Below, one piece after another: positions 2,586-31,723 of a DNA stretch of 33,685 nucleotides. Under the pieces are notes generated by a model, which worked only from the letters and a program-made list of their open reading frames with translations, was not told the DNA's origin and did no database searches. The first letter of the stretch is position 1. Each line of letters starts with the position of its first letter. Origin of the DNA: an uncultured Bacteroidota bacterium (lineage in GTDB: Bacteria > Bacteroidota > Bacteroidia > Chitinophagales > Chitinophagaceae); NCBI GenBank assembly GCA_903882965.1, contig CAIRZD010000327.1, positions 1-33,685 on the forward strand. The letters are read 5' to 3'. The position numbers and the translations under genes are program-made.

Positions 2586-2638
2586 ACTGTGACAATCAGC
2601 GTGATAAATTGGGGCATTTTGCGACATTTTGCGACATT
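2586..2638 (+). repeat. 53-bp conserved intergenic element, copy 1
   Basis: It aligns without gaps to the minus strand of 23672-23724, 45 of 53 positions identical by hand count. Shared blocks are ACTGTGACAA, GATAAATTG and two copies of TGCGACATT spaced 10 bp (one helical turn) apart. The element points toward the gene at 2767, whose -33 box lies 71 bp further on. Confidence 0.7.
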
Positions 2639-2766: not shown

Positions 2767-3549
2767 ATGCGTCACACAGAAGGTCACGTTACCGCCGAGA
2801 TACAACATGGTATTGCTACGATAGAATTCTTCCATCCGTCCAGCAATGCTCTCCCCGCGGCAATACTTACGGATCTCGCTAAAACGATAAATGATATTGG
2901 CATTGATAACCGCGTAAAAGTTATCGTATTGCGGAGTGCCGGTGAAAAGGCTTTCTGCGCCGGAGCATCTTTTGATGAGTTGATGGCTATTGAGAACGAG
3001 GCAGATGGCAAAAAATTCTTTAGCGGCTTCGCCCATGTCATCAATGCCATGCGCAAATGCCACAAACTGATCATAGGCCGTGTACAAGGCAAAGCAGTAG
3101 GCGGCGGTGTCGGCATCATTGCTGCTACCGATTACGCAATAGCTACAGAAGATTCATCCGTTAAGCTTAGTGAGCTGGCAGTAGGCATAGGCCCATTTGT
3201 TGTAGGCCCCGCAGTTGAGCGCAAAGTAGGGGTGTCCGGTTATACCCAGCTGGCAATAGACGCTACCGAGTGGCGCTCTGCAGAATGGGCTAAGCGCCAC
3301 GGCCTTTATTCCGAGATACACAAAAATATTTTCGAAGTAGATGATGCGGTAACCAAACTCGCCGAGCAACTGGCTCACAGCAGCCCCGATGCCATGGCTC
3401 AGCTCAAAAAAATATTCTGGCAGGGCACCGAAAACTGGGACTCCCTCCTTTCTGATCGTGCAGCTATCAGCGGTCACCTTGTGCTCAGCACATTTACACG
3501 TAACGCCATAAATAAATTTAAAGCAAAAGCAAAACCACAAACTTCATAA
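2767..3549 (+). CDS. Enoyl-CoA hydratase/isomerase family protein, methylglutaconyl-CoA hydratase-like
   Basis: A 260-residue crotonase-fold protein of usual family length. The oxyanion-hole region is visible as AFCAGASFDEL (about residues 62-72) and GKAVGGGVG (about 108-116). The first catalytic Glu of classical hydratases (GGGxE) is Gly116 here, while the second is kept as Glu136 in LSELAVG. The GGGVG...LSE pattern is, from memory, typical of the bacterial LiuC group (3-methylglutaconyl-CoA hydratase, leucine breakdown), so that is the preferred role; another short-chain enoyl-CoA hydratase or isomerase is possible. No other leucine-degradation gene is adjacent. It has its own promoter and converges with the methyltransferase gene, the stops being 13 bp apart. 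Confidence 0.85.
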   Translation: MRHTEGHVTAEIQHGIATIEFFHPSSNALPAAILTDLAKTINDIGIDNRVKVIVLRSAGEKAFCAGASFDELMAIENEADGKKFFSGFAHVINAMRKCHKLIIGRVQGKAVGGGVGIIAATDYAIATEDSSVKLSELAVGIGPFVVGPAVERKVGVSGYTQLAIDATEWRSAEWAKRHGLYSEIHKNIFEVDDAVTKLAEQLAHSSPDAMAQLKKIFWQGTENWDSLLSDRAAISGHLVLSTFTRNAINKFKAKAKPQTS

Positions 3550-23024: not shown

Positions 23025-23606
23025 TTAATTAAAGGTCCAGACTGATGGGTTATTGGCGGGATTGTTGTAGCCAAAATCATTTACAACTCCAGTATAAGTG
23101 TTCGTTACCTGGTATCTGAAAGTAATTGTGCTAAAGGCACCGTCTGTGCCGGGGGTGAAATAACCTTTCCCGACGATGGTGGCACTATCATATAGTGGCT
23201 GGGTGGGTATGAAAATACTATCGCCAGCAATGCTGCCGGACAATTGGGTTTGAGAGACAAAGTTACTGATGTATGGGTAGTATAGTTGATTAATAGTGAT
23301 GCTTGTGAGTGAAGAAAAGTTATCTATATAAATACTGTAATCCTGGATGCCTGTATTGCTCCCTTTTTCATTTACTATCCAGTTTCCAAGGAATTTTTGA
23401 AGGGCCTCCGTTTGGCAGGAGGTGCCTTCAAAGGCTGCAGGGCAGCGGCAGGTATCATTGATACATTGGCCGCCATTGGCACATGTAACGCACTTGATAA
23501 TGGTGGTGGATGTGACGTTGCGATCCTTGTTGCAGGAAATATAGCTGATAGCGGAAATGACTAAAATAAGTGCTAGTAGTGTTACTGTTTTGGGGGGGAA
23601 TCTCAT
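23025..23606 (-). CDS. Lipoprotein with an EGF-like domain, function unknown
   Basis: 193 residues. A signal peptide ends in ISYISC, giving a lipidated Cys at about residue 25. An EGF-like module follows (about 38-67): CVTCANGGQCINDTCRCP and then FEGTSC, six cysteines in EGF spacing. The rest (about 70-193) is beta-rich, starts FLGNWIVNEKG and resembles the lipocalin-like lipoproteins common in Bacteroidota. Such proteins are thought to be displayed on the outer membrane; the partner is unknown. The gene has a good promoter, preceded by copy 2 of the 53-bp element. Confidence 0.82.
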   Translation of the reverse strand: MRFPPKTVTLLALILVISAISYISCNKDRNVTSTTIIKCVTCANGGQCINDTCRCPAAFEGTSCQTEALQKFLGNWIVNEKGSNTGIQDYSIYIDNFSSLTSITINQLYYPYISNFVSQTQLSGSIAGDSIFIPTQPLYDSATIVGKGYFTPGTDGAFSTITFRYQVTNTYTGVVNDFGYNNPANNPSVWTFN

Positions 23607-23656: not shown

Positions 23657-23671
23657 CATATTGGGACAAAG

Positions 23672-23724
23672 AATGTCGCAGAATGTCGCAAAACGCCACA
23701 ATTTATCCTAGTGTTTGTCACAGT
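23672..23724 (-). repeat. 53-bp conserved intergenic element, copy 2
   Basis: On the minus strand it shares ACTGTGACAA, GATAAATTG, TTTTGCGACATT and a second TGCGACATT with 2586-2638, without gaps and with 8 mismatches by hand count, five of them clustered in one 8-bp variable stretch. It lies directly upstream of the lipoprotein promoter, where an activator site would be expected. Confidence 0.7.
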
Positions 23725-23914
23725 GGAAAAATTCATGGTAATGGACATCTCCGGGCCTCTCCCCTTTGGCTACACTCAGGGCAAGTTTGAAGAGGTGAGG
23801 TGGAGTAAGCGCTATTATAGCATGCATAATTTTTCATGTGTTGTTTTTTTAAAAATCTGGTGTCGATTTATTCTGGATATTAAAATGTTTATTTAATAAT
23901 TTCAAATATAGTCT

Positions 23915-24116: not shown

Positions 24117-24130
24117 AAGTGTATACACTT
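24117..24130. promoter_or_regulatory. Perfect palindrome AAGTGTATACACTT
   Basis: 14-bp perfect inverted repeat sharing the 10-bp core GTGTATACAC with 2391-2411. It lies about 390 bp upstream (in gene sense) of the second 53-bp element. Confidence 0.4.
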
Positions 24131-25325: not shown

Positions 25326-25409
25326 TCAGGTGTTATGTGCCCTGCCTGAGGGAAACAGCACGAGACTTAGCAGCCATATAGCTGTGGTATTTAAAAGATA
25401 TTGGCGCAT
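25326..25409 (-). pseudogene. 27-codon remnant copying the 5' end of the M56 (BlaR1-like) gene
   Basis: Reads MRQYLLNTTAIWLLSLVLF then PSGRAHNT and stop. Its first 19 residues differ from the start of the M56 protein encoded at 27364 only at residue 2 (MLQYLLNTTAIWLLSLVLF). The DNA matches at 52 of the first 57 bases, then identity ends abruptly. It lies 11 bp after the stop of the GldM_C-like gene, same strand. This is the broken end of a duplicated M56 gene; a 27-residue product would be one membrane helix without the protease. Confidence 0.85.
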
Positions 25410-25420
25410 AAAGGGAAGTT

Positions 25421-25897: not shown

Positions 25898-27364
25898 CTA
25901 ATCTTTTGGATGTATTGTACCACTTGTAACATCCCATATTATTTTATGATCTTTTACAGTGAAATCCCATCCGTTATCATAGCCATAACTAAAGCATGTG
26001 ACACTATTGATCAAGAATGACGCCGGGGCGTTATTTACTTTTGCAGGCTCAAAAAGGGGTGCATCATTCATAAGATCATTGATCTTGTTATCAATGATCT
26101 GTTTTGACTTTGGTTGTTTGTCTATTTCCACTCCCACCTGAAATATGCCCTGATCATCAAAATATACGACCATCCCCTTAGCGTTAATAACTACATCACT
26201 GATAATGAAGAAGTATTTCCCATCATTGAGCGTCTCCATTTCTTTTTTGGCATTTTGCATAATATAAACTGCGAGGTTTTTGCAGCTTGATCTTAATACC
26301 GGCGGCTGAATATTTTTATCATTGTAAGGATCGTAAATTTTATCTCCGTTGACCTTTATCGGGGGTGTAGGCCAGGATATTGGCTTTCTTGATGTTTCGC
26401 CGGTTTTTTCATCAGTATACAAATAACTATCCGGTTTTTGGGGTGCGAGAAATTCTATAGTGTTTCCCCTGTATGTACATTTATTACCTTCTTTTTTGGG
26501 TTTATTTGAAAAGCTGTTTTGCGAAAAACATAAAATGCATACTACTACCAATGGAATAAATACCAACAATTTGCTTTTTGCAATTTCAGATGACCTGTGT
26601 GTGAGCATGACAATCCTGTTTTTTATGGGAGCACGGTTAAATGAATGAGACAGCGCAGGGGCTGACTGTAGTATGGCCTGCTCGACAAGAAATTTTCCAT
26701 ACACCTGTGGCTGTGCTGTTGTTTTATCTGCCTGGTACTCATGCACTAAAAGCAGGCGGGCATTATATACATATACCAAGGGATGAAACCAGAATATGAT
26801 CCTTGAAAGCTGCATGAGTAAAAGGTCGGCAGCATGTAAGAGTTTGTAGTGGCGTTTTTCATGAATGATTATCATGTTCCATTCATTAGTATCATATTGC
26901 AGCTTGCTGTGTACAAACAGTGCGTTTAAAAATGAAAATGGCGCATGCTCCCGCCCGGTTTCTATAACCAGCCAGTTATCTTCTTTTGATTTATGGCCAT
27001 GATAATACTTTACCAGCTTTACCAGATCAAGTAACAGGATGCATAATGTGACAATAAAACCTGTGACATAGACAACCATAAATAATTGCGCCCAATTGAA
27101 AGCCGGAGAAAGAGGGATAGTGGCAGTAATGATATTTTCTTTTGCTGTAATGACCTGTTGTACCGGGTGCTGCAATGCGGATTGTGTTATTGTGGTTACA
27201 TATTGATATTGCCAGTGGAATAGTGGCAGCAGCGCACCCAATAAGAAAGTGAACAGCAAGTAAAAGCGGTTATAATTGTGATAGCTTTCCTTCCTGAGGA
27301 ATAAATCAAATAGCACGAGGCTGAGCAGCCATATAGCGGTGGTATTTAAAAGATATTGGAGCAT
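25898..27364 (-). CDS. M56-family antirepressor metallopeptidase (BlaR1/MecR1-like)
   Basis: 488 residues. Four hydrophobic segments lie in about 1-270, with the zinc protease site on the cytoplasmic loop: HEKRH (168-172) and third ligand Glu209 in VHEYQAD. After the last segment (about 252-275) comes a periplasmic tail of about 210 residues rich in Lys and Pro. It lacks the Ser-x-x-Lys penicillin-sensor domain of true BlaR1, so beta-lactams are not the likely signal. By family logic, a signal on the tail activates the protease, which leads to cleavage of the BlaI-type repressor. It starts one base after the blaI stop. Confidence 0.88.
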   Translation of the reverse strand: MLQYLLNTTAIWLLSLVLFDLFLRKESYHNYNRFYLLFTFLLGALLPLFHWQYQYVTTITQSALQHPVQQVITAKENIITATIPLSPAFNWAQLFMVVYVTGFIVTLCILLLDLVKLVKYYHGHKSKEDNWLVIETGREHAPFSFLNALFVHSKLQYDTNEWNMIIIHEKRHYKLLHAADLLLMQLSRIIFWFHPLVYVYNARLLLVHEYQADKTTAQPQVYGKFLVEQAILQSAPALSHSFNRAPIKNRIVMLTHRSSEIAKSKLLVFIPLVVVCILCFSQNSFSNKPKKEGNKCTYRGNTIEFLAPQKPDSYLYTDEKTGETSRKPISWPTPPIKVNGDKIYDPYNDKNIQPPVLRSSCKNLAVYIMQNAKKEMETLNDGKYFFIISDVVINAKGMVVYFDDQGIFQVGVEIDKQPKSKQIIDNKINDLMNDAPLFEPAKVNNAPASFLINSVTCFSYGYDNGWDFTVKDHKIIWDVTSGTIHPKD

Positions 27365-27365
27365 A

Positions 27366-31647: not shown

Positions 31648-31723
31648 GGTGCGGTAGCTCAGTCGGTAGAGCAAAGGACTGAAAATCCTTGTGTCGCCGG
31701 TTCGATCCCGGCCCACACCACCA
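31648..31723 (+). tRNA. tRNA-Phe (GAA)
   Basis: 76 nt including the encoded CCA. Acceptor GGTGCGG / CCACACC, D-arm GCTC/GAGC, anticodon stem AAGGA/TCCTT with loop CTGAAAA (anticodon GAA), variable GTGTC, T-arm GCCGG/CCGGC with TTCGATC, discriminator A. The acceptor stem has a C-A mismatch at position 5-68, unusual but the rest is canonical. Confidence 0.96.

Follow-up and report, generated by a model that had tools for sequence, protein, structure and literature searches.

The DNA arrays described here resemble, each in some respect, three bacterial systems reported previously. In Escherichia coli, the sites of ArcA, which belongs to the OmpR/PhoB family, comprise from two to five direct repeats with centres 11 or 22 bp apart and lie upstream of many operons, with ArcA dimers aligning along one face of the DNA (PMC3798270). 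The BrickBuilt MITE of Porphyromonas gingivalis, which is species-restricted, is built of 23-nt repeats without spacers, carries inverted-repeat ends, is present in 19 copies and is reported to have promoter activity (PMC4596501). Finally, Beggiatoaceae, Cyanobacteria and five Bacteroidetes have TAACTGA direct repeats, contiguous heptamers lying within nucleotides of the start codon and thought to act in translation (PMC4679880).

Our arrays come from the genome of an uncultured member of the Chitinophagaceae (GCA_903882965.1, here G000; 4.8 Mb in 508 contigs), and two of them lie in its contig C327, the whole of which, 33,685 nt, constitutes the window of this study. They are similar to the multi-repeat sites of ArcA in being direct repeats one helical turn apart, two to five in number, upstream of genes, but differ from that host regulon because they ride on a dispersed element and have a different sequence, genome and flanks. 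With BrickBuilt they have in common an intergenic, multi-copy and restricted occurrence in Bacteroidetes and a core of tandem repeats (PMC4596501), while departing from it in the phasing of their units by 10-11 bp and in having one palindromic edge, with no inverted ends seen on reading. The affinity with the TAACTGA repeats lies in forward direct repeats preceding unrelated genes, patchily across distant lineages; however, the unit is here TGNGAYATT, the spacing is of one turn and the median distance from the ORF is 111 bp, which places the arrays outside the TAACTGA class. Neither BrickBuilt nor the TAACTGA repeats match the G000 arrays in sequence or spacing. Mobile promoters, too, are upstream regulatory DNA spread as copies, like the G000 element, but in the latter each gene seems to keep a promoter of its own, outside the repeat. 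No report of these repeats was found in the open-access literature searched by text and sequence.

Phased Arrays in the Window and across Genomes

An earlier note on this DNA had claimed that positions 2586-2638 of the plus strand and 23724-23672 of the minus strand match over 53 bp without gaps, with about eight mismatches mostly clustered in one short stretch. Realignment yields exactly eight differences, five of them within 7 bp, and all the conserved blocks that the note listed are in place, namely TGTGACAA, GATAAATTG and two TGCGACATT units at a 10-bp step. In a repeat search of the window the matching pair reaches a length of 62 nt, with 82% identity. In a random window of equal size and composition the expected number of inverted pairs of such quality is 1.8e-10, which rules out chance similarity of the two copies (about 0.02 pairs are expected if the match probability is set to 0.40). 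Even with up to 22 mismatches allowed, the window yields no further copy, and a local two-copy duplication is dismissed because the family is genome-wide.

Copy 1 (2586-2638, plus strand; model match 2603-2642, E 1.2e-9) contains the units TGTGACA at 2588, CGTGATA at 2600, TGGGGCATT at 2610 and TGCGACATT at 2620 and 2630, the last four following each other at a 10-bp step; copy 2 occupies 23672-23724 of the minus strand (model match 23668-23707, E 2.8e-8). Both copies face gene starts, as the earlier note had it. The gene downstream of copy 1 (2767-3549, plus strand, ATG at 2767) does encode an enoyl-CoA hydratase/isomerase (PF00378), with relatives in Flavipsychrobacter, Taibaiella, Chitinophagaceae and other Bacteroidetes, whereas the EGF-like label given to the 193-aa ORF downstream of copy 2 (23025-23606, minus strand, ATG at 23606) rests upon a sole Pfam match, EGF_TEN, which lies below its cut-off.

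Across the genome, an array is a head-to-tail row of TGNGAYATT units with a step of about 10-11 bp. The family was defined by a sequence-only model built from 15 copies, which gives in G000 at least 85 matches at E≤10 and at least 62 at E≤0.1, counts that may be low since the best 150 candidates per genome were scored. Among the latter, 60 of 62 loci were fetched (five with less than 200 bp upstream), while C182:624 and C322:8804 were omitted because both adjoin arrays already taken. Strict TGNGAYA units number 128 in these 60 loci, as against four in one composition shuffle, with three or four units in 22 loci, two in 23 and one or none in 15. The 94 unit pairs within 45 bp fall into a ladder of 51 pairs at 10-11 bp, 28 at 20-23, eight at 30-32, one at 38 and six at 42-44, where a few loci can contribute several pairs.

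The family model itself carries this spacing and thus introduces a selection bias, for which reason the spacing was recounted on loci chosen by a palindrome or block of the surrounding element (see below). In these 40 loci, nine of the 16 pairs within 60 bp stand at 11 or 20-22 bp; the reversed control has three pairs, none at those distances. Moreover, 400 kb of long G000 contigs contain eight of 22 unit pairs at 10-11 or 21 bp, versus none of seven in the congener G013. The one-turn spacing therefore holds, 11 bp being commoner than 10 bp in weaker copies. Strong copies have TTTT every 10 bp, and within unit pairs the core is conserved while the linker drifts, most clearly at the 11-bp spacing, where the linker retains 0.23-0.85 bits and four core positions of the second unit 1.66-2.00 bits (the second unit having been matched loosely). 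Judging from the sequence, the arrays look like tandem binding sites for one DNA-binding protein.

This family is restricted in occurrence. With up to one mismatch, TGNGACATTTTGNGACATT has 32 matches in G000 (none in the reversed control) and one in 24 genomes of the same genus taken together; each of 39 other genomes, these 24 included, has between zero and four model matches at E≤0.1, and 10 of the 40 genomes, G000 among them, have any such match, in both cases among the best 150 candidates per genome. A two-unit score applied to the 400-kb sample finds six arrays at threshold 20 (control zero) and eight at threshold 18 (control one), whereas 400 kb of G013 gives none at all the thresholds used. 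Extrapolation to the whole of G000 gives about 70-95 arrays from a sample that is not fully unbiased, because its long contigs had appeared in earlier match lists. In a family-wide draw of 195 genomes, 14 have a pattern match, with more than two only in G000 (34) and in G072 (23), a genome of another genus; a phylum-wide draw of 395 genomes includes nine with a match, among which G000 alone exceeds one. Overall, G072 is the only one to have a comparable family outside G000 among the 614 genomes searched by pattern. The array pattern occurs in 25 stretches of 2.9 million viral contigs, one match each, as a raw count. Copy 2 with its element has no match in phage and plasmid collections and two block patterns have zero matches in viral contigs, upon which a phage or plasmid origin was rejected. 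Some arrays are found only a few hundred bases or less from the end of a contig (C459, C469, C381, C390 and C33 of G000, and several contigs of G072), as expected if repeats break the assembly.

In G072, where loci were chosen by a spaced pattern, 24 unit pairs stand at 10 bp, 11 at 20, six at 30 and nine elsewhere. Its composite differs from that of G000, consisting of GTTCTTTGACATACTGTAAACCC, the array, an inverted unit and a further unit, and GTTCTTTGACATACTGTAAACCC has 14 matches in G072 loci versus two in G000 loci. What is common to the two families is the array and its placement. An ORF follows at 142-241 bp in nine of the 17 G072 copies, and a -7 box is present in four of these nine loci (shuffles reach a maximum of five). 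CHAD genes lie downstream of arrays in both genomes, with 37% identity, in addition to one weak similarity. We take both GTTCTTTGACATACTGTAAACCC and GTTCTTTGA to be boxA-like motifs; the form GTTCTTTGA(A/C)A is found in composites of both genomes (G000 loci such as L280, L292 and L305; L224-L240 of G072).

Placement of the Arrays and the Element around Them

Polarity was evaluated on 78 arrays, combining the 60 model loci with 18 palindrome loci and using ORF-based gene calls; 14 were left unscored, eight lying inside a called ORF and six at a contig end. In the 64 scorable cases the next ORF to the right of the array is on the same strand 53 times and on the opposite strand 11 times (p 1e-7), and the 53 same-strand ORFs begin 4-499 bp away, with a median of 111 bp. 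The tendency is weaker in the smaller sets, the 400-kb sample (only five same strand versus two opposite, with one array in coding sequence) and G072 (nine versus four).

The -7 consensus of Bacteroidetes promoters is TAnnTTTG. Such a box separates the array from the ORF in 12 of 42 loci, as compared with one on the reverse strand and one upstream, while 500 shuffles give a mean of 2.0 and a maximum of six; together with a spaced TTTG it is seen in only two of the 42 (one reversed). For the enoyl-CoA hydratase gene, the likely native promoter spans 2709-2740 of the plus strand, with a TTTG at 2709-2712 recognized by eye and, 20 bp further on, TACTTTTG at 2733-2740 as the -7 box. A similar promoter stretch, again by eye, precedes the orthologue of this gene in locus L038, which is without an array. 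The good -33 box that the earlier note had placed after copy 2 could not be confirmed, and no TAnnTTTG box was found between this copy and its downstream ORF. A further motif shared downstream, TTATCAATAAATTAA, was discarded (six occurrences versus five in the reversed control).

Genes downstream of the arrays are disparate. The 42 downstream proteins scanned, including the two of the window, show no common function; at least one match is listed for 36 of them, with PMT_2 twice, and they include UvrA, succinyl-CoA ligase, homocysteine S-methyltransferase, NusB, ketoacyl synthase and E1 dehydrogenase, as well as MlaD, ferritin, MoaC, CHAD and a LysR regulator. Nor does the array accompany orthologous genes: it is present in none of 80 orthologous upstream stretches of up to 400 bp, the best two-unit score in these being 5.3 versus 29.1 for each window copy, and no array reaches threshold 18 in 508 kb of orthologous loci.

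Each array terminates, on the side of the gene, a longer non-coding element that is itself dispersed and the order of which is a palindrome, GTGTATACAC or GTGCATGCAC, then in some copies a 45-bp block, and finally the array. Allowing one mismatch, the palindrome lies upstream of the array in 43 of the 60 loci; the block B2 (AAATAAACATTTTAATATCC...ATCGACACCAGATTTTTTA) is present in 17, and B3, the right half of this block, in 27. In G000 the B3 pattern has 45 matches, versus five at most in each of 25 other genomes, and the palindrome pattern 156 strand-hits, versus eight at most. Long stretches are common to some copies, as in 446 bp at 71% identity (C446/C459) and 385 bp at 78% (C361/C446). 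Ten of the alignments listed run across the array; nine of them end within about 7 bp of the array end, only C129/C228 continuing, and six begin no more than 19 bp from a palindrome. Of the 40 loci fetched by palindrome or block, 35 fit the palindrome pattern, and in 18 of these a strong array stands 187-440 bp from the palindrome, to one side of it and never to both. Since homology stops at the array end and arrays are one-sided at palindromes, the array is the right edge of the dispersed unit. Identity is 0.76-0.94 in the B2 block versus 0.27-0.64 in adjoining sequence (16 of 17 block copies, ungapped), a difference that only suggests selection on B2, because the copies were picked by that very block.

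Copy 2 is a full unit, running from 24128 to 23672, with GTGTATACAC as its left edge at 24119-24128 (from pattern match and alignments), the B2/B3 block AAATAAACATTTTAATATCC...ATCGACACCAGATTTTTA at 23850-23894 of the minus strand and, at 23743-23800 of the same strand, another dispersed repeat, CCTCACCTC...GGGGAGAGGCCCGGAGATGTC, which was recognized by eye and recurs in other loci. Copy 1 (2314 to 2638) has a different order, with GTGCATGCAC at 2314-2323, a degenerate B3 (GTCAACACCAGATC, up to three mismatches) at 2356-2369 of the plus strand, GTGTATACAC at 2397-2406 and then the array; parts of the element have therefore also been shuffled.

Explanations of the Arrays

The earlier note read the phased units as tandem binding sites of one regulator and mentioned a dispersed non-coding repeat as the alternative, and each reading holds in part. 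One-turn spacing, a core kept while the linker drifts and the orientation of 53 in 64 arrays toward the next ORF speak for binding sites, but a conserved regulon is unsupported; shared stretches of up to 446 bp and homology ending at the array in nine of the ten listed alignments speak for the repeat. The signs that the note named against its own reading are likewise divided, as placement is non-random with respect to genes and yet the blocks are absent before orthologues. The explanation we favour, to which we assign a probability of roughly 0.45, combines the two: a lineage-specific, dispersed upstream element would bear a docking array in the style of ArcA and PhoB for one predicted protein, which would modulate neighbouring promoters. 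The two to five head-to-tail TGNGAYATT sites would form the platform and, being one helical turn apart, would lie on one face of the DNA, where one sequence-specific protein may occupy them next to each other, in the manner of ArcA or PhoB on sites with several repeats. Copying would have brought the element, made of palindrome, body, sometimes the 45-bp block and array, to roughly 70-100 positions, in most cases shortly before a gene and its native promoter, so that the bound protein could modulate transcription initiation. Cooperative head-to-tail binding would be the best model of the array by analogy. As in arrays of OmpR/PhoB type, direct repeats stand about 10-11 bp apart centre to centre, a spacing partly favoured by the selection of loci, and many sites have more than two. 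We nevertheless refrain from filing the array under the OmpR/PhoB family, because OmpR-type regulators are no more numerous than in congeners (six in G000, six to seven in four array-free congeners and seven in G072), and a surplus of them in the array carrier was accordingly rejected.

How could the same observations arise without a regulator? The copies are short, non-coding, many, dispersed and homologous, as MITEs are, and a serious rival to the docking model is a non-autonomous mobile element, with the palindrome as left end, the array as right end where transposase subunits dock, and the copies before genes as mere passengers. Its long shared stretches bounded near a palindrome and at the array end, its patchy occurrence (two of 614 genomes), the non-coding, intergenic copies nested with other repeats and the 11 of 64 scorable copies that face no ORF start would all follow. 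However, 42 copies give no signal of target-site duplication, with a mean longest match of 4.26 versus 4.29 in random pairings (their ends being uncertain and the copies old); reading of the two edges reveals no evident terminal inverted repeat, and no autonomous copy was noticed in the loci read. The polarity toward genes and promoters would also be left unexplained, unless by target choice or loss of harmful insertions, and on balance we consider this explanation less likely than the docking model. Were it correct, the element would still be unusual in its asymmetry, one edge being a palindrome and the opposite edge a phased array, and in a gene-ward polarity lacking explanation. A classical regulon, in which binding sites for a single conserved regulator evolved independently at every promoter, accounts for polarity, proximity to promoters and helical phasing, but is quite improbable given the array's absence from all 80 orthologous upstream stretches and of the family from same-genus genomes, the 42 downstream proteins without common function and the long flanks common to some copies.

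The arrays lie on the strand of the gene and their composites contain the boxA-like GTTCTTTGA, features which would also befit a transcribed leader in which an RNA-binding protein would recognize the repeats, a mode of action put forward for the TAACTGA repeats. Three G072 copies indeed fold better than shuffles (z -1.75, -2.67 and -2.47), but G000 pieces do not (z 0.70, 0.45, -0.17 and 0.92), the 17 G072 copies have no consensus pair, and pairing with the inverted unit is possible for the variable base of the second unit in seven of the 17 and of the first unit in none. Since copy 1 also lies upstream of the likely promoter of its gene, and Rfam returned only a tRNA and no family for the repeats in 60,853 bases, action at the RNA level appears very improbable. 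Least credible is that T-tracts at each turn (TTTT every 10 bp in strong copies) merely curve the DNA upstream of promoters, with no specific protein needed: the 11-bp pairs keep the core and the linker only weakly (1.66-2.00 versus 0.23-0.85 bits, the second unit being loosely matched).

If the docking model is right, a ready-made phased platform has spread before many unrelated promoters within the history of one genus, and strains with and without a given copy would offer a direct test of repeat-built regulatory networks in bacteria. A bolder version, distinctly unlikely in our estimate, is a mobile-enhancer system in which a lineage-restricted DNA-binding protein and its array elements would jointly have rewired, in one species, the transcription of unrelated housekeeping genes, as many as about 100 of them, while a second genus harbours a parallel family; bacteria would then have their own equivalent of the regulatory rewiring that repeats drive in eukaryotes.

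Other Repeats in the Window and the Genome

The dispersed repeat CCTCACCCTCTCC...GGGGAGAGGTC lies inside or beside many G000 elements, including window positions 23743-23800. Yet another repeat, about 300 bp long and with 79-92% identity between copies, is found upstream of arrays or of the element in C250, C375, C384, C388, C459 and C268, and some of the longest alignments among these contigs correspond to it and not to the element. The palindrome AAAGGTGTATACACTTT stands without an array near position 1500 of four loci (L272, L295, L300 and L303, in C6, C201, C320 and C423 of G000), often followed by TTGA and a short distance before phage-like genes (head maturation protease, baseplate region, DNA-binding/terminase-like and terminase large subunit); a promoter site, of phage or host, is one possible role. 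In the window itself, the minus strand of 3-1964 encodes a repeat protein of 654 aa, the frame of which runs off the contig end and contains coding repeats at intervals of about 147 bp or its multiples. A 58-bp direct repeat, 91% identical between 25353-25410 and 27308-27365, lies at or beside genes of M56-peptidase type and is likely a local duplication, and a tRNA gene occupies 31648-31720 of the plus strand.
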